A stretch of 64,000 bases of DNA from Yoonia vestfoldensis. Lineage in GTDB: Bacteria; Pseudomonadota; Alphaproteobacteria; Rhodobacterales; Rhodobacteraceae. Each line of letters opens with the position of its first letter. Position 1 is the stretch's first letter. The stretch spans positions 3,302,001 to 3,366,000 of the forward strand of contig NZ_CP021431.1 of NCBI RefSeq assembly GCF_002158905.1. The letters run 5' to 3'. The translations under genes were made by a program, and so were the position numbers. Under the pieces are notes generated by a model. That model was not told the DNA's origin, did not search any database, and saw nothing but the letters and a program-made list of their open reading frames with translations. Of the stretch, positions 50,074-62,013 are shown one piece after another.

Positions 50074-50160
50074 GCCCAGGTGGCGGAATTGGTAGACGCG
50101 CTAGCTTCAGGTGCTAGTATTGGCAACGATGTGGAGGTTCGAGTCCTCTCCTGGGCACCA
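50074..50160 (+). tRNA. tRNA-Leu (anticodon CAG)
   Basis: An acceptor stem GCCCAGG/CCTGGGC, D-arm GGAATTGGTAGACGC, anticodon stem CTAGC/GCTAG with loop TTCAGGT, a long variable arm and GGTTCGAGTCC can all be read. CCA is encoded. The gene is intact although an element is integrated at its 3' end. Confidence 0.95.
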
Positions 50161-50256: not shown

Positions 50257-51261
50257 TCATCGGCTCCACCCCCTGATCGCGAGCTTCTTTCGGTTGGCCG
50301 ACTTCGTGTAGTGAATGGCCATTTTGCCGCCCTCCCATCCGAACATCGCTTCCAGCTCATTCACCGTAGCCCCGGCCTCTGCGGCCCGCGTGGCGGCGAT
50401 CTTCCTCAGCCCATGCGCCGACTTCTCGACCCCCGCCTCGCGGCAGGCATCACGGAACATGTTGCCGAAGCTCTCCTTGGTCAGCGGCTTGCCCGAGGCC
50501 CCGACGATGAAGTGCATGTCGCCTGTCGGCCCTGCGTCGAGGCTCGCCTTGAGGGGCGCCAAGATCGGGATCGTCACTTCGGTGCCGGTCTTCTCGGTCT
50601 TCAACGTCGCCCAACCTTCGCGGATGTGCTGGCGGCCAATCTGAACCGCATCGCCACGGCGCAGGCCCGTGTAGAGCAACACGTCGATCCAGACCCGCTC
50701 CTTCGTACCGTGAGGCCATCGGGCGTGGTAGCGCTCGACGTCCTCGTCGGTCCAGACCGCGAAGCCGCCGCCCTTGCCGGTCTTGGGCGTCTTCACCCCT
50801 AGCGTCGGGTTCTCAGTCACGAAGTCCATTTCGACCGCCCAGTTGAACAAGCCGCTCATGGCCTTCCTGAAGTTTTCGGCCTGCGCCGGTGTCTTTGCCC
50901 GCTTCTCGACCCCCTTTGCGATCGTCGCCTTGGTGACCGCCGCGTAGGGCGCAGCTCCCGCGCTCTCGATGACGTGCTTCAGGATGTTGTTGCGCTGCTT
51001 CTGGGTGGCCTTGGCGAGGTCGGCGAAGGCGGTGGATCGCCGGTAGCGGTCGATCAGCCATTCGAGCGACTTCGGGTCGGCCTGCCGGTAGCGCGGCGCA
51101 GGCTCGACCCCTTTCAGCGCGTCCATGTAGGCCGCGTCGAAGCCCGGATCGAGCAGGTCCGGGAGGCGGATGCGTTTTCCGTGGTCGCGTCGGAAATACC
51201 AGTTGACGCGGCCGTGCCGGGTTCGTTCCCGTGACACATAGGGCGGGATATTCTTGCCCAT
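50257..51261 (-). CDS. Tyrosine integrase of the tRNA-Leu element
   Basis: The 334-residue protein has a core-binding domain (about 60-160) and the catalytic domain with Arg in LYTGLRRGDAVQIG, HGLRK for the His-x-x-Arg box and a terminal Tyr in MAIHYTKSANRKKLAIRGW. It lies 96 bases from attL and reads toward it, the usual place for a tRNA-targeting integrase. Two small genes upstream overlap or abut it. Confidence 0.94.
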   Translation of the reverse strand: MGKNIPPYVSRERTRHGRVNWYFRRDHGKRIRLPDLLDPGFDAAYMDALKGVEPAPRYRQADPKSLEWLIDRYRRSTAFADLAKATQKQRNNILKHVIESAGAAPYAAVTKATIAKGVEKRAKTPAQAENFRKAMSGLFNWAVEMDFVTENPTLGVKTPKTGKGGGFAVWTDEDVERYHARWPHGTKERVWIDVLLYTGLRRGDAVQIGRQHIREGWATLKTEKTGTEVTIPILAPLKASLDAGPTGDMHFIVGASGKPLTKESFGNMFRDACREAGVEKSAHGLRKIAATRAAEAGATVNELEAMFGWEGGKMAIHYTKSANRKKLAIRGWSR

Positions 51262-52116: not shown

Positions 52117-52401
52117 ATGAAACGCCCGACCCTGCTGGCGACGATCCGGTCGCATCATCTTTACCTCGAATGCGCCTGCGGGCGTGGCGCTGAGGTTTCG
52201 GTCTTAAGCGCGATCGGGCGGATCGGGCATAGCGCCAATGTCGGTGACGTGGTGGACAAGGCTCGGTGCGCGGCCTGTGGCGCGAAGTCGGTCAAAGGGG
52301 TGCGGATCGTCTACAAGGGCGCATCGGACACCGCGATGGCGGGTGCGGCGGGCAAGGTTGACCACGATCGTGAGGATGATGGCGGGGTGTCGGACTGGTA
52401 A
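52117..52401 (+). CDS. Small zinc-ribbon-like protein, 94 aa
   Basis: LECACGRGAEV and RCAACGAKSVKGVRI supply a CxC and a CxxC pair, a probable zinc ribbon. It is 19 bases after the Arc-like gene, so the two are likely cotranscribed. Its end meets the truncated end of the antisense parB remnant exactly, so the parB C-terminus was lost at this junction. The function is unknown. Confidence 0.7.
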   Translation: MKRPTLLATIRSHHLYLECACGRGAEVSVLSAIGRIGHSANVGDVVDKARCAACGAKSVKGVRIVYKGASDTAMAGAAGKVDHDREDDGGVSDW

Positions 52402-53353
52402 CCCGCGTCGAGGGCCTCCTTGGCCTCCGGCGACAGCGCCGCGACCTTGAGGGACCGCTCGACCGTCTGGCGCGTCATGCCCAGATTGCGGGCGGCCTCG
52501 CGGGTGCCGCCCTTATTGCCTCGGCCCTCGACGATGCCACGTTCAGAAACCGGCCCGTCTTGGGCCAGTTTCCGCTTCCCTTTGATCCCGACCCTTCCGC
52601 GACGAGCCCTGCGCGGTTGCTTTCAATTGGCGCAACTTGCGCCGATTGATGCTCGCCCTTGTTGTGTCCTCTAGTGGCCCAAGTTGGGCCACTAAGGCTT
52701 GCGCCCAAAGGTTGCGCAACTTGCGCATCCAGCCCATGCTGCTCCCCTGTGATCCTGCCCGGCCCAAGCGCATTGGGTTATGGCCAACTTGGCCGAAACC
52801 TCCCGCCTGCCGGATCGTCTGAAACGTGCGCAAGTTGCGCAGGTTTAGGTGCCCAACTTTGGCATCCCCTGCCATCCTGTAAGACAGGTGGCCCAACTTG
52901 GGCCACCTGCCGCTCCTTAAGATCCGGACCTGCCCGAACTCCTTGGGGTTTTTGCGCAACTTGCGCAGAAACCTACTGCCGACCGGATCGTCTGAAACTG
53001 GCGCAACTTGCGCCGGTTTCCCATCGGTCGTGATCCGTACCCGGACGACCGCGACCTATTTTATGGCCAACTTGGCCAGAAATTCGCTCCCCTGTGATCC
53101 TGACCCACTCGGCCACCAGCCCGGCGCGTTCGATATGGCTGATCTCCCGGCGGTGCAGGTTCTCCGCGATTTCCGTCAGGCGACCATCCGCCTCGCGGCC
53201 GTCGTCACCGTCGACCGCAGGCATCTGTAGCGCGTCGATGCTCTCCCATTTCAGCTTGATTGCAGCGGCAAGTCGGTGCCGACCCGCGATCAAGAGCAAG
53301 CGCTGGTGCTGCGGAGCCTGATTTGCCAGCCCTGTCGAACAATCCACGAGCAT
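52399..53353 (-). pseudogene. Broken ParB-like gene interrupted by a palindrome array
   Basis: On the minus strand, 53332-53050 encodes a ParB-like core (LLLIAGRHRLAAAIKLKW, then GRLTEIAENLHRREISHIERAGLVAEW, then VRITGERISGQVGHK). The ParB C-terminal part reappears in another frame at about 52600-52400 (GRGNKGGTREAARNLGMTRQTVERSL, then KVAALSPEAKEALDAG). Between them lie several hundred bases of diverged repeats and palindromes that break the frame. The ParB N-terminus is missing, replaced by the start of the restriction gene at 53432. Confidence 0.7.
52552..53078. repeat. Cluster of ~10 palindromes centred on CAA(C/G)TTG
   Basis: Perfect copies occur at 52629-52643, 52672-52694, 52713-52727, 52782-52794, 52827-52841, 52885-52909, 52953-52967, 53000-53014 and 53064-53078. 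Imperfect copies lie at 52552-52566 and 52850-52864. All are odd-length with a CAA-C/G-TTG centre. The arms are of two types, (G)GCC(C)/GGGCC and (T/G)GCG/CGC(A/C), and change together on both sides. The two types are interleaved. Confidence 0.9.
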
Positions 53354-53431
53354 AGATCGACGACGATAAGACTTTCGCCCTCCAAGATTGCTGCCTAGTG
53401 TCTTGGGAAATAGGACGGGAATATCACAACG

Positions 53432-56400
53432 ATGCTTTTTAACCGAAAGACGCTCAGTCGGAATATTCAGCCTGCGACGATCCCCGCCGATCACTTGGCC
53501 ACGCTGAACGAATGGGCTGATATGATCCGCTCGGGCCGCGTTTATGCTCTTAAGGAAACCGCCCTGCATGGGCAATTCGCGGTGAAGATAATCGAAGGGG
53601 TACTCGGCTATCACGGGCCTGTGGGAGGGACAGATTACACTGTCTCAGCCGAACAGGGAATTTTGCAGGGCAGTGTCGATCTGGCCCTTGGCCGGTTCGG
53701 TGGCAAGGTCCCGGAAATCCTCGCTCCGTTCGAGTTGAAAGGCGCAAAAACGAAAGACTTGGACGCCATCATGCCCGGGCGGAACAAGACCCCTGTTCAG
53801 CAGGCGTGGGAATACGCCATGAACGCGCGGGGTGTAAAATGGGTGCTTGTCTCGAACATGATAGAGCTGCGCCTCTACGGTTTCGGGGAGGGCACCTCAG
53901 CCTACGAGATGTTCCGCCTCGATCAGTTGACAGACCCGAAAGAATACGCGCGCTTCATGCTGCTCCTATCAGCGGAAAACCTGCTGTCTGGCCGCACGGC
54001 TGATCTGCTGAAAGATAGCCGCCGCGAAGACAAGGACATCACCGACAGCCTGTATCGGGATTACAAAGACCTGCGCCTAAATCTCATGAGCGCTGTCCAG
54101 AAGGCCGATACCTCGATCGCGCCCCTCGATGCGATCGCCGTCGCACAGAAGATCCTCGATCGGGTGCTGTTCATCGCCTTCGCCGAAGATACCGGCCTGC
54201 TGCCCGACAATACCCTGTCACAAGCCTTTGTTACCCGCGACCCCTACAACCCCCGCCCGGTCTGGGACAATTTCCGAGGCCTGTTCAACGCCATCGACAA
54301 GGGCAGTGATGCTCTAAAAATCCCCCGCTACAACGGGGGCCTGTTCCGGCAAGACGACACGATCAACGCCCTGACCCTGCCCGATGATGTGTGCGAGGGG
54401 TTCAAAAAGATTGGCGAGTATGACTTCGCGTCCGAAGTCTCTGTCACTGTGCTGGGCCACATCTTCGAACAATCCATCGCTGACGTTGAGCGCCTTCAGG
54501 CGCAGGCGCGGGGGGAGGAAACAGAAGAAACCAAAGCCACCGGTACCAGCGGGCGACGCAAGCGTGACGGGGTGGTCTACACCCCCGACTACATTGCCCG
54601 CTTCATCGTGGCTGAAACTCTGGGCGCGCACCTCGAAGAAGCCTTCAACGGTATTCTGCGAGCTCATGCCAAGGCCGGGGCCGATCTGTCTGACTATGCC
54701 GCCATACAGTGGCGCAGAAAATCGGCCGAGCTGGAAGCGTGGCAAGCCTACCGAGACCGGCTGAAATCGTTGCGCATTGTCGATCCCGCCTGCGGATCGG
54801 GCGTGTTCCTCATCATGTCCTTCGATTTCCTGAAGGCCGAACTGTCGCGCGTGAACGACAAGATTGCCGAGCTGCGAGGCAAAGATCAACACATTCAGGA
54901 CATGCTCGATCCTGACAGTGAAATCCTGACGAACAACCTTTTCGGGGTGGATGTGAACTCGGAAAGCGTTGAGATCGCCAAGCTGTCGCTTTGGATCAAG
55001 ACCGCCCGTCGCGGCAAGGTTCTGGACAGCCTGTCTGGCAACCTGCGCGTGGGTGATAGCCTGATCGAGGACAGCAACTTCGCCTATCTCGATCACGCTT
55101 TCACTTGGGAAACCGCCTTTCCCAGCGTCTTTGCCGAAGGTGGGTTCGACGTGGTTCTTGGCAATCCACCTTATGTGCGACAGGAAATGTTTTCTGGCCT
55201 CAAACCCTATCTGCAAAGCCGCTTCGAGGTGTATCATGGCGTTGGCGACCTATTCACCTACTTCTTCGAGCGCGGCCTGCGCCTTGTGAAACCGGGTGGG
55301 CGTTTGGGCTACATCTCCTCCAGCACCTTTTTCAAGACCGGCTCGGGCAAGCCGCTGCGTGAATATCTGTTGAAAGAAGCCACCATCGAAAGCGTAGTTG
55401 ATTTTGGCGACCTACAAATATTTGATGGAGTTACCACCTATCCGGCGATCCTGACAATGAAGCGTGGGGCCGCGGCAATAGATCACGAGCTGCGCTTCTG
55501 GAAGGTTGACGCGCTGACCGACGCCAACTTCCAAGCCCGATGGGAAAGTGCGCAAGCGCCTTATCCACAAACAGCCCTTCGGGCTGGATCATGGGAGCTG
55601 GAAAATCCCGTCCTGCGCTCCCTGCGCGAGAAAATCCGTGCGGGCAAAAAGACGCTCAAAGAGGTTTATGGATCGCCACTGCGCGGTATCGTGACCGGCC
55701 TTAACGCCGCCTTTGTGATCGACACGCCCACGAAAGAGCGGATCTGTGCCGATGACCCGTGCTCTGCCGAATTACTCAAGCCCTTCCTAGAGGGCAAGGA
55801 CCTGAAACGATGGCGCGCAGAGCCGCGCGGGCTCTGGCTGATCAAGATCGAAAAAGGATGGACGACACGCACCTATGCGGAAACCGATGAAGACAGAGCA
55901 TGGGAAGCCTTCCGTTCCGACTATCCAGCTTTGGCCTATTGGCTTTATCCATTTGCAGAACGCGCGCGCAAGCGGACCGACAAGGGCGATTTTTGGTGGG
56001 AACTAAGAGCTTGCGCCTATTATGATGCCTTTGACAAGCCTAAAATCGCCTACAAAGATATGGCTGACCGCGCACCATTCCATGTCGATTATGCCGGTTC
56101 CGTTATGGCAAACACAGGCTATTTTATCTCCAGTGATGATCACCACCTTGCATCTTATTTAAATTCAAAACTGTTCTGGTTCACCTATCTAAATGTAAGC
56201 GCACAAATAAGGGGCGGGTTCGTTCGTTTCTTTTCCGATCTTCTCAAAGAAATGCCTGTCCCTGAATGGTCGGAGGAACAGAAAGAGGAGCTTACAAGGC
56301 TATCTGACAGTGCCCACAAGTCGGCAAAAACCTGCCTCAAACTCCAAACCGCTCTCACCCGCCGTATCCCCGACCTCTGTCCGCCAGACCGCGAGCCAAA

Positions 56401-56656
56401 GCTCACCACCAAGCTCAAGGAATGGTGGACCCTGCCGGACTTCGCCACCTTCCGGGCCGAGGTGAACAAAGCGTTCAAGACCGATATTCCATTGGGCGAA
56501 CGCTCCGACTGGGAAGACTGGATTACCCGTGACCGCGCCGAGATCGTCCGCCTCACCGCCGAAATCGCTCAGGCCGAAGCCCAGATCGACAGTATCGTGT
56601 ACGGCCTGTTCGACCTGACACCTGACGAAATCGCGCTGCTGGAAAGCGTGGTATAG
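53432..56656 (+). CDS. Single-chain type IIG restriction-modification enzyme
   Basis: The 1074-residue protein has a nuclease of PD-(D/E)xK type near the N-terminus (SVDLALG with D83, APFELKG with E101 and K103, and PVQQAWEYAM). A helical linker follows. The adenine methyltransferase domain has motif I VDPACGSGVFLI near 449 and motif IV NPPY near 577. The remaining ~400 residues would hold the target-recognition domain. It should cut unmethylated DNA and modify its own site in one polypeptide. It is the element's evident defence gene, read opposite to the surrounding genes. Confidence 0.88.
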   Translation: MLFNRKTLSRNIQPATIPADHLATLNEWADMIRSGRVYALKETALHGQFAVKIIEGVLGYHGPVGGTDYTVSAEQGILQGSVDLALGRFGGKVPEILAPFELKGAKTKDLDAIMPGRNKTPVQQAWEYAMNARGVKWVLVSNMIELRLYGFGEGTSAYEMFRLDQLTDPKEYARFMLLLSAENLLSGRTADLLKDSRREDKDITDSLYRDYKDLRLNLMSAVQKADTSIAPLDAIAVAQKILDRVLFIAFAEDTGLLPDNTLSQAFVTRDPYNPRPVWDNFRGLFNAIDKGSDALKIPRYNGGLFRQDDTINALTLPDDVCEGFKKIGEYDFASEVSVTVLGHIFEQSIADVERLQAQARGEETEETKATGTSGRRKRDGVVYTPDYIARFIVAETLGAHLEEAFNGILRAHAKAGADLSDYAAIQWRRKSAELEAWQAYRDRLKSLRIVDPACGSGVFLIMSFDFLKAELSRVNDKIAELRGKDQHIQDMLDPDSEILTNNLFGVDVNSESVEIAKLSLWIKTARRGKVLDSLSGNLRVGDSLIEDSNFAYLDHAFTWETAFPSVFAEGGFDVVLGNPPYVRQEMFSGLKPYLQSRFEVYHGVGDLFTYFFERGLRLVKPGGRLGYISSSTFFKTGSGKPLREYLLKEATIESVVDFGDLQIFDGVTTYPAILTMKRGAAAIDHELRFWKVDALTDANFQARWESAQAPYPQTALRAGSWELENPVLRSLREKIRAGKKTLKEVYGSPLRGIVTGLNAAFVIDTPTKERICADDPCSAELLKPFLEGKDLKRWRAEPRGLWLIKIEKGWTTRTYAETDEDRAWEAFRSDYPALAYWLYPFAERARKRTDKGDFWWELRACAYYDAFDKPKIAYKDMADRAPFHVDYAGSVMANTGYFISSDDHHLASYLNSKLFWFTYLNVSAQIRGGFVRFFSDLLKEMPVPEWSEEQKEELTRLSDSAHKSAKTCLKLQTALTRRIPDLCPPDREPKLTTKLKEWWTLPDFATFRAEVNKAFKTDIPLGERSDWEDWITRDRAEIVRLTAEIAQAEAQIDSIVYGLFDLTPDEIALLESVV

Positions 56657-60945: not shown

Positions 60946-62013
60946 TCAATGCCCCCCCGGTCTTTGGGTGGGGGGAGCGGGTGTATAGTGATTGTGCCCA
61001 GAAGTGGGCAGTCTATCGGATAGCCGATAAAGCCCCGCTTGACGCTTTTCTTTGCTAGGTGAACGCACCTCTTCGATCAGCTTTCGCTCGATAAGTACGT
61101 CACGTGCCATCGCGATCCTGCGTCGAGACCAAGGCGGCGATCCGGCCTCACTCATTGCACGCGGGGCGATGGCAAAATGTTGTCGATTGCCATGCCAGCG
61201 ACGAAAAATCTGGTACAAGACGAAAGCCTCAGGTTGGTCTAGCAGTTGGTCCATCAAAACGTCCTCCAGAGAAAATTGTGGCTTCCGAAGGCCGAGGAAG
61301 TTTCGGCCTGTCGCCTCGTATCGCCAAGCGCTGCGCGCGCACTTCTCGAGTTCAGATAGGGGCAGCGGGTCGGGCATCGCGGTCGCCCATGTGACAACGT
61401 CGTCGAAAAGTTGCTCTACGTCATCGCAGTGCCGCGCCATCGCCATTGCGTAGCGCCATGCCGCGTTGTTCCGCATCCCGGGCAGGACGCCCTCGGCGGC
61501 GCGAGTAGGGCGCAGGTCGAAGGCGCCCTCTCGTATCGTCGGGAGGCCGTCCAAGTCCGCCAGCGATCCGTGCAGGAAGCGGTAGGCCGTCTCCAGATCG
61601 TCCCGCGCGCTTGGCGGGCAGATCGAGAAGCCTTCGCCCAAAACGTCGATTGGCCAATCGTTGAAGGGGCGGATGTGCCGCCCCTCCCGATTATGTGTGT
61701 ACCAGAGTTTGTGCTTACGGCTGGCTGTCTGGATCACCACCGGCGTGTCGCCGAAATGGTCGAGGGCAGCCCCGACCCATGCCGTACCGACGGCATCGAC
61801 GTCGATCTCGACGATGCCCGAGCGCTTGCCCATGAGCAGCCCGAGCCCGTCGGCCGCGCCCAACTCAGTTGATCGCGCCCATGCTCGACTGTGGCGCAGT
61901 GTGGTTTCCTGCCACCGCTTCACGCGCGGCTTCTTGGCCCGGGTATCGACCGGAAAGGTGGGCAGGCCAGCGTCGGCGTAGACCGGCGCGTGATGGCCGA
62001 AGATGGCGGTCAT
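60946..62013 (-). CDS. Primase-polymerase-like protein (AEP/PriCT type)
   Basis: The 355-residue protein starts YADAGLPTFPVDTRAKKPRVKRWQ and carries LGLLMGKRSGIVEIDVDAVG, an archaeo-eukaryotic-primase-type active-site region with the EIDVD acidic pair. KHKLWYTHNREGRHIRP follows. The central part (RNNAAWRYAMAMARHCDDVEQLF) resembles a PriCT primase C-terminal domain. It likely primes replication of the element from an origin such as the iteron array. A helicase module is not present in this gene. Confidence 0.75.
   Translation of the reverse strand: MTAIFGHHAPVYADAGLPTFPVDTRAKKPRVKRWQETTLRHSRAWARSTELGAADGLGLLMGKRSGIVEIDVDAVGTAWVGAALDHFGDTPVVIQTASRKHKLWYTHNREGRHIRPFNDWPIDVLGEGFSICPPSARDDLETAYRFLHGSLADLDGLPTIREGAFDLRPTRAAEGVLPGMRNNAAWRYAMAMARHCDDVEQLFDDVVTWATAMPDPLPLSELEKCARSAWRYEATGRNFLGLRKPQFSLEDVLMDQLLDQPEAFVLYQIFRRWHGNRQHFAIAPRAMSEAGSPPWSRRRIAMARDVLIERKLIEEVRSPSKEKRQAGLYRLSDRLPTSGHNHYTPAPPTQRPGGH

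Follow-up and report, generated by a model that had tools for sequence, protein, structure and literature searches.

The window, i.e., the whole 64,000-nucleotide stretch of the Yoonia vestfoldensis genome analysed here, contains a cluster of short palindromes that raises the question why repeats with a common centre should differ in the sequence of their arms and yet remain symmetric. An earlier note, made from the letters of the DNA, reported nine perfect and two imperfect palindromes of odd length, whose arms switch between a GGCC and a GCGC type. Our recount gave the same tally and the same lengths (13-25 bp), and both arm types are indeed present. The explanation that we consider very probable, judged from sequence comparison, is that these palindromes are parS-like sites located inside their own parB gene and read by the helix-turn-helix (HTH) which that gene encodes, that their arms track the protein, and that the window holds a multiplied and broken copy of such a gene.

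The nine perfect palindromes fall within 52629-53078 and the two imperfect ones lie at 52552-52567 and 52851-52863. The pattern GSSCAASTTGSSC occurs 13 times in the genome of 3,987,360 bp, as does a reversed control pattern; 9 of the 13 sites are clustered in 450 bp of the window, and all nine of these are perfect palindromes, compared to one of the four found elsewhere. A second pattern, GCGCAASTTGCGC, occurs five times in the genome, every time in the window locus (control: 1). Three units extended by AAAC/GTTT-type arms on the minus strand, 52995-53019 (site 2), 52948-52972 (site 3), and 52822-52846 (site 6), are paired at 10 of 11 stem positions each and, as had been remarked before, their mismatch is in the same place, which their sequences show to be position 8 from the centre. 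A 55-nt duplication of 84% identity connects 52792-52846 on the plus strand, which spans site 6 and part of site 7, with 52965-53019, and the palindromes inside the two copies differ symmetrically in their arms. Such symmetric change of both arms agrees with the suggestion, already made in the earlier note, that selection acts on the palindrome itself.

The palindromes (52547-53083) are part of a decayed parB-like gene of the minus strand, in which they lie between the ParB N-domain and the HTH. The remnant of the N-domain lies in the open frame 52976-53449 (minus strand), where RLLLIAGRHRL ... TEIAENLHRREISHIERAGLVAEWVRITGE at 53087-53302 can be aligned with relatives, and lacks the beginning of the domain. 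The HTH half lies in the open frame 52314-52622 (minus strand; EGRGNKGGTREAARNLGMTRQTVERSLKVAALSPEAKEALDAG), with its coding stretch at 52540-52400, the glycine of the HTH turn at 52481, and R and Q as the equivalents of residues 173 and 174 (numbering explained below). The two halves (53449-52976 and 52622-52314) are in different frames with intervening stops. A Pfam scan of the window ParB fragment gave no match; the fragment can nevertheless be aligned with relatives. An Eco57I-type methylase gene (53432-56656) adjoins the remnant; this Eco57I/MmeI-type restriction-modification gene abuts the truncated start of parB and may have replaced the missing part. On the other side, a phage-type integrase gene (50257-51261, minus strand) comes after a tRNA-Leu gene (50074-50160, plus strand) and, therefore, the palindrome locus probably belongs to an element that has a tRNA gene as its integration site. 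A Prim-Pol/PriCT_1 primase gene is found at 60946-62013 in the same region of the window.

A search of 248 family genomes with the window fragment gave matches to its own genome and to four distant genes, and a search of plasmids and phages with the 72-aa fragment gave no match at 1e-5. A profile search of named genomes yielded seven loci, in Bradyrhizobium jicamae, Rhodoplanes elegans (two), Maritimibacter fusiformis, Chthonobacter albigriseus, Stella sp., and a Roseicyclus MAG; a perfect CAA(C/G)TTG palindrome sits in the same place in four of these loci (L058, L061, L063, and L064), and the Roseicyclus palindrome belongs to the other arm class (TGCCCAAGTTGGGCA). In a scan of IMG/VR for TGCGCAASTTGCGCA, most of the matches listed are due to chance, and three (L108, L114, and L144) are parB genes. 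The ParB of L144 retrieved two distant records from phages and, at 1e-20, no match from plasmids. Most matches of a query with L011 to 295 family genomes were ordinary chromosomal ParB proteins, and this query was left aside. The scans of phage contigs, together with L058 and L062, provided 104 open reading frames, i.e., 65 unique ParB-like frames. A second subfamily, recognized by an EIDENL motif, consists of 67 unique open reading frames that passed the motif filter, obtained from 91 loci of which 80 were the best 80 of 473 relatives. Pfam ParB_N was found in both relatives scanned (E 2.1e-5, below the curated cut-off, and 7e-7, above it) and phrog_3264 is the best match for all four relatives scanned, so that a ParB-family N-domain is present in the relatives and, by alignment with them, in the window fragment. 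Directly upstream of the intact parB gene in all five contigs scanned (L330, L331, L336, L340, and L144) is phrog_5931, which is not ParA; a ParABS pair is, therefore, not evident there. This uncharacterised family carries a QHRL motif, itself reminiscent of ParB.

A matching site within the gene was found in about 100 related phage and bacterial genes, usually as a single copy, compared to about eleven in the window. Perfect palindromes of at least 13 bp are centred in 24 of 62 linkers (L187, L221, and L310 excluded) versus 11 of 541 other segments of the same genes, or 11 of 369 without L220, an open reading frame that contributes 172 very short segments; 22 of the 62 linkers exceed their synonymous shuffles at p <= 0.05 in this test. 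Linkers without CAANTTG mostly contain an inverted repeat around a different 3-nt centre. An inverted-repeat score of at least 8 is reached by 48 of 62 linkers (here without L220, L221, and L310) versus 27 of 372 other segments and 81 of 1860 synonymous shuffles. For the second subfamily the corresponding numbers are 61 of 67 genes, 24 of 451 segments, and 150 of 1340 shuffles, the last meaning that 11% of the shuffles still reach the threshold. In eleven phage contigs (approximately 380 kb) we counted 15 perfect palindromes of at least 19 bp, 11 of which are the one in parB.

Alignment of 58 units on their centres defines the element. Positions ±2 to ±12 are paired in 578 of 638 cells in spite of varying arm sequences, a fraction that looks somewhat better than it would across all 62 linkers because L205, L288, and L311 (no clear unit) were dropped by hand and L187 was dropped for its even centre. 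Pairing falls to 31, 25, and 15 of 58 at ±13, ±14, and ±15, so that the unit is 25 bp long. Its apex is CA-NNN-TG, with A-T at ±2 in 57 and C-G at ±3 in 56 of the 58 units; the CAA-N-TTG centre described earlier is seen in the window, but CAA(C/G)TTG is just one case of this wider apex on an 11-bp stem. Canonical parS has a conserved 16-bp sequence, whereas here three or four types of Watson-Crick pair occur at each of positions 4-12. Over ±4 to ±12 the paired fraction is 0.887, and dealing the right arms out among the genes lowers it to a mean of 0.366 (maximum 0.458). The centre has the same codon frame in 55 of the 58 units and other frames in three genes, so the cause does not lie in conservation of the peptide. 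Intact ParB frames, which would have counted against the earlier note if their repeats had been simply conserved codons, do exist among the relatives, yet the palindrome arms differ there and still pair. Some linkers are unusual: L114 (5065-5143) carries a tandem pair of different perfect palindromes (29 and 27 bp) that differ at base 4, L178 has a similar tandem pair with a mismatch in one member, and L325, a divergent ParB-like gene, has a linker with an 18-bp perfect stem and a 3-nt centre.

What do the variable arms follow? The inner arm bases (4-7) are correlated with the sequence of the HTH (Mantel r 0.26, p 0.0005; the same when the N-domain is taken into account) but not with that of the N-domain (r 0.05, p 0.17). 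When all HTH columns were compared with all stem positions, the top pair was the residue equivalent to 173 of Caulobacter ParB with base 6 (z 12.5), followed by residue 174 with base 4 (z 6.4); the 95% and 99.9% permutation maxima are 4.6 and 6.3. The numbering was obtained by aligning G-x-x-R with G170-K171-S172-R173 by eye. At residue 173, R goes with G at base 6 in 22 of 23 genes, K with T in 9 of 10, Q with A in 2 of 2, V with C in 6 of 8, E with C in 5 of 8, and D with C in 2 of 2. At residue 174, D goes with G at base 4 in 13 of 13, Q with C in 4 of 4, and T with G in 12 of 15, and R is mixed (G 4, A 2, C 2, T 1). Combinations of HTH columns 165, 167, 176, 177, and 179 with bases 6, 8, or 9 also exceed the 95% permutation maximum, indicating that ancestry contributes and that shared ancestry was not fully removed. 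The two leading pairs remain first and second when the relatives are reduced to 54, 43, 26, and 14 genes (p 0.003 and 0.013, respectively, at 14 genes), and both persist if inner bases are exchanged at random within classes of genes that have one outer arm in common (p 0.0002 each). In the sister genes L264 and L267, residue 174 is P and R and the base-4 pair is A-T and G-C, respectively. The R-G and Q-A pairs are those of the published contacts: R173 of ParB contacts G1 of parS and the matching Q of Noc contacts A1 (Jalal et al., 2020, PMC7383237).

The code was compared with 12 candidates from outside the training set, selected by an automatic filter. Base 6 agrees in all five candidates of the same subfamily whose residue had been seen in training (L205 R-G, L218 E-C, L360 V-C, L375 R-G, and L379 K-T), two of which also combine Q174 with C at base 4. 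Two members of the other subfamily, L324 and L325, contradict the code (R with C), and L328 has A with C, a base that was not seen with Ala in training. The remaining four have residues absent from the training set, i.e., S in L210 and P in L111, L311, and L377, which are of doubtful quality. By eye, L064 (R, Q; G6, C4) and the first site of L114 (R, D; G6, G4) agree with the code, and the second L114 site, with T at base 4, does not. An AlphaFold2 model of the L262 protein has a predicted HTH at 152-174, in which the 173 and 174 equivalents (residues 164 and 165) are the first two of the helix 164-174; the palindrome of this gene encodes residues 135-144, a low-confidence loop. An HTH is thus indicated both by the model and by the residue-base code.

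The outer arms behave differently from the inner ones. Bases 8-12 show a weak correlation with the N-domain (r 0.12, p 0.0045) and one with the HTH of p 0.033 uncorrected, or 0.16 given the N-domain. Apart from residues encoded by the palindrome itself, their strongest coupling is with a basic stretch ahead of the HTH (GGRP, GGRG, and GGKQP types; z up to 18.1). A basic arm that reads the minor groove would fit this and may serve as a lead, although plain linkage could give the same coupling since the stretch is only a few codons away from the outer bases. The outer arms are more symmetric than a typical operator requires, which counts against our main interpretation.

The HTH of the window has R173 and Q174 and, according to the code, its site should have G at base 6 together with C at base 4. 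Base 6 is G in all ten units that can be scored, all read on the minus strand; the remaining one, the imperfect site 5 at 52851-52863, reads GCCCAACTTTGGC on the plus strand. Base 4 is C, as predicted, in five units: sites 1 (53059-53083; stem 9/11), 4 (52885-52909; perfect over 25 bp), 7 (52776-52800; 9/11), 9 (52671-52695; 10/11), and 11 (52547-52571; 9/11, two mismatches). Site 11 lies closest to the HTH, whose frame it shares, and is, therefore, likely its "own" site. The other five units, i.e., sites 2, 3, and 6 (coordinates given above), 8 (52708-52732; 8/11), and 10 (52624-52648; 10/11), have G at base 4, a misfit to the HTH of the window that would suit other ParBs, of the D/T174 type. 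Hence, the two arm classes are distinguished by the base that residue 174 would read, which, like the connection of the site to the protein of the same gene, was missed in the earlier note. The window units are most similar to linkers of different relatives (L058 of B. jicamae for site 3; L185 for site 6; L114, L203, and L188 for site 10; L061 is a further best match), and the 55-nt duplication accounts for two pairs of units. It is likely that linker units of the locus were duplicated and exchanged repeatedly and that decay came later.

In the mechanism that we propose, a ParB-family protein would recognize a 25-bp parS-like site within the coding sequence of the flexible linker that immediately precedes its HTH, with two HTH copies bound, one per half-site. 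The recognition helix would read arm bases 6 and 4 with its first two residues, and the basic stretch may read the outer bases. Since protein and site would change together, the arms would vary among genes yet remain symmetric. The symmetry of the element, its position within the gene, and the residue-base code are observed, and physical binding is predicted from them. The window holds a broken family member whose linker unit has expanded to about eleven sites that fall into two classes of specificity. Our guess at the role is nucleation of a ParB clamp and feedback on transcription of the gene itself; one site per element would suit either a clamp-loading site or a feedback operator. The partition-type site which the earlier note listed among its options comes close to this predicted binding site, and its overall interpretation is partly supported.

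That note also mentioned hairpin RNAs and a mobile repeat. An RNA hairpin formed by the parB transcript or by an antisense transcript, its tip being a conserved CANNNUG, would produce arm co-variation through stem pairing; its shape would suit the 11-bp stem and the 3-nt loop, which is not palindromic in about half of the units (±1 paired in 30 of 58), and the linkers do fold more stably than their synonymous shuffles (mean z -1.48 with and -1.02 without a CAANTTG palindrome). We regard it as improbable, since G-U pairs on the sense strand (GT/TG 5) are rarer than A-C mismatches (AC/CA 16) in the 638 cells, since pairing ends abruptly at ±12, and since a hairpin does not predict the R-G/Q-A logic by which two recognition-helix residues track the inner bases. 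The excess of A-C over G-T in the stems may reflect a strand asymmetry.

A self-copying palindromic repeat tolerated in linkers, comparable to the Rickettsia palindromic elements, is in line with the about eleven copies in the window, with the two copies each in L114 and L178, and with the resemblance of the window units to linkers of different ParB genes. It is nevertheless very improbable: the arm sequence is not conserved, no second copy with at most 2 mismatches in 17 was found among the matches listed for the 11 phage contigs (approximately 380 kb; for one contig 12 of its 16 matches), where the palindrome occurs once, in parB, and the genome of the window has just one further palindromic GSSCAASTTGSSC. 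Moreover, sister genes with and without CAANTTG (L223 and L224) are of equal length, and such a repeat does not predict a code linking arm bases to HTH residues. That code also makes two other explanations extremely hard to credit. Template switching at short inverted repeats, correcting arm to arm to no function, would account for arms in the window that are symmetric despite the broken reading frame, but it leaves the fixed length, the fixed place, and the CA..TG apex unexplained as well. The palindromes have a size typical of sites of dimeric regulators and could thus be operators of a different regulator, e.g., a phage repressor, that happen to lie within parB. However, the arm bases track the HTH of the same gene, and in 8 of the 11 phage contigs the parB palindrome is the sole perfect one of at least 19 bp in the sequence covered.

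If the palindromes are indeed ParB sites, a further reading, which we put forward tentatively and hold to be possible rather than probable, is that many ParBs of phages and mobile elements are self-addressed genes, with the target in their own linker beside the code for the HTH, so that one recombination moves both. As part of this same tentative reading, the window would be a fossil with tandem linker units of two specificities, once perhaps a sink for the ParBs of competitors. Specificity could then change in one step, lock and key together, which suggests a route by which mobile elements gain a new specificity with the match of protein and site kept. For most DNA-binding families the matching of proteins to targets needs experiments; here the target seems to be written in each gene itself and, consequently, a recognition code of ParB-type HTHs would be readable from sequence alone. 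It would also suggest a role for orphan phage ParB proteins, seemingly left open by a 2025 survey.

The orphan ParB-CTPase proteins of mobile elements, which are common on phages and occur without parA, are of the same broad kind; their binding sites do not seem to be described, and the words "palindrom" and "inverted repeat" are absent from the main text of the paper on them (PMC12704722). Correlation of factors with their sites is an established method (PMC5045206). We found no account in the open-access literature of sites within ParB linkers whose arms vary and match the protein. Rickettsia palindromic elements are palindromes within reading frames that have a common sequence and occur in unrelated genes, whereas the palindromes here have no common arm sequence and were not found in unrelated genes. 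The operator OB of KorB (plasmid RK2) is similar in that it concerns the ParB family and an odd-length palindrome with a G/C centre, but it is 13 bp long, fixed in sequence, and located in promoters. Noc is likewise an orphan ParB relative with its own specificity, has Q at 173 combined with A, and provides the best solved relatives by sequence (Noc chains; 7ol9, E 1.3e-8); its NBS, however, is a single fixed sequence present at many chromosomal sites, unlike the arm-variable sites described here. Canonical parS is nearly invariant among bacteria, whereas our arms vary by gene and track the protein, the site has 25 bp with a 3-bp centre and lies in the linker before the HTH in most genes tested, and phrog_5931 rather than parA is the neighbour in the five contigs scanned. 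The likeness to ParB-parS lies in the ParB-family protein, the palindromic site within parB, and the reading of a base by residue 173 as R-G (PMC4442127; PMC7383237). A parS inside parB is thus already known, as parS-359 of Bacillus subtilis sits inside parB (spo0J; PMC4442127), and it is the arm-variable site, apparently matched to the protein of its own gene, that is new relative to the literature found.
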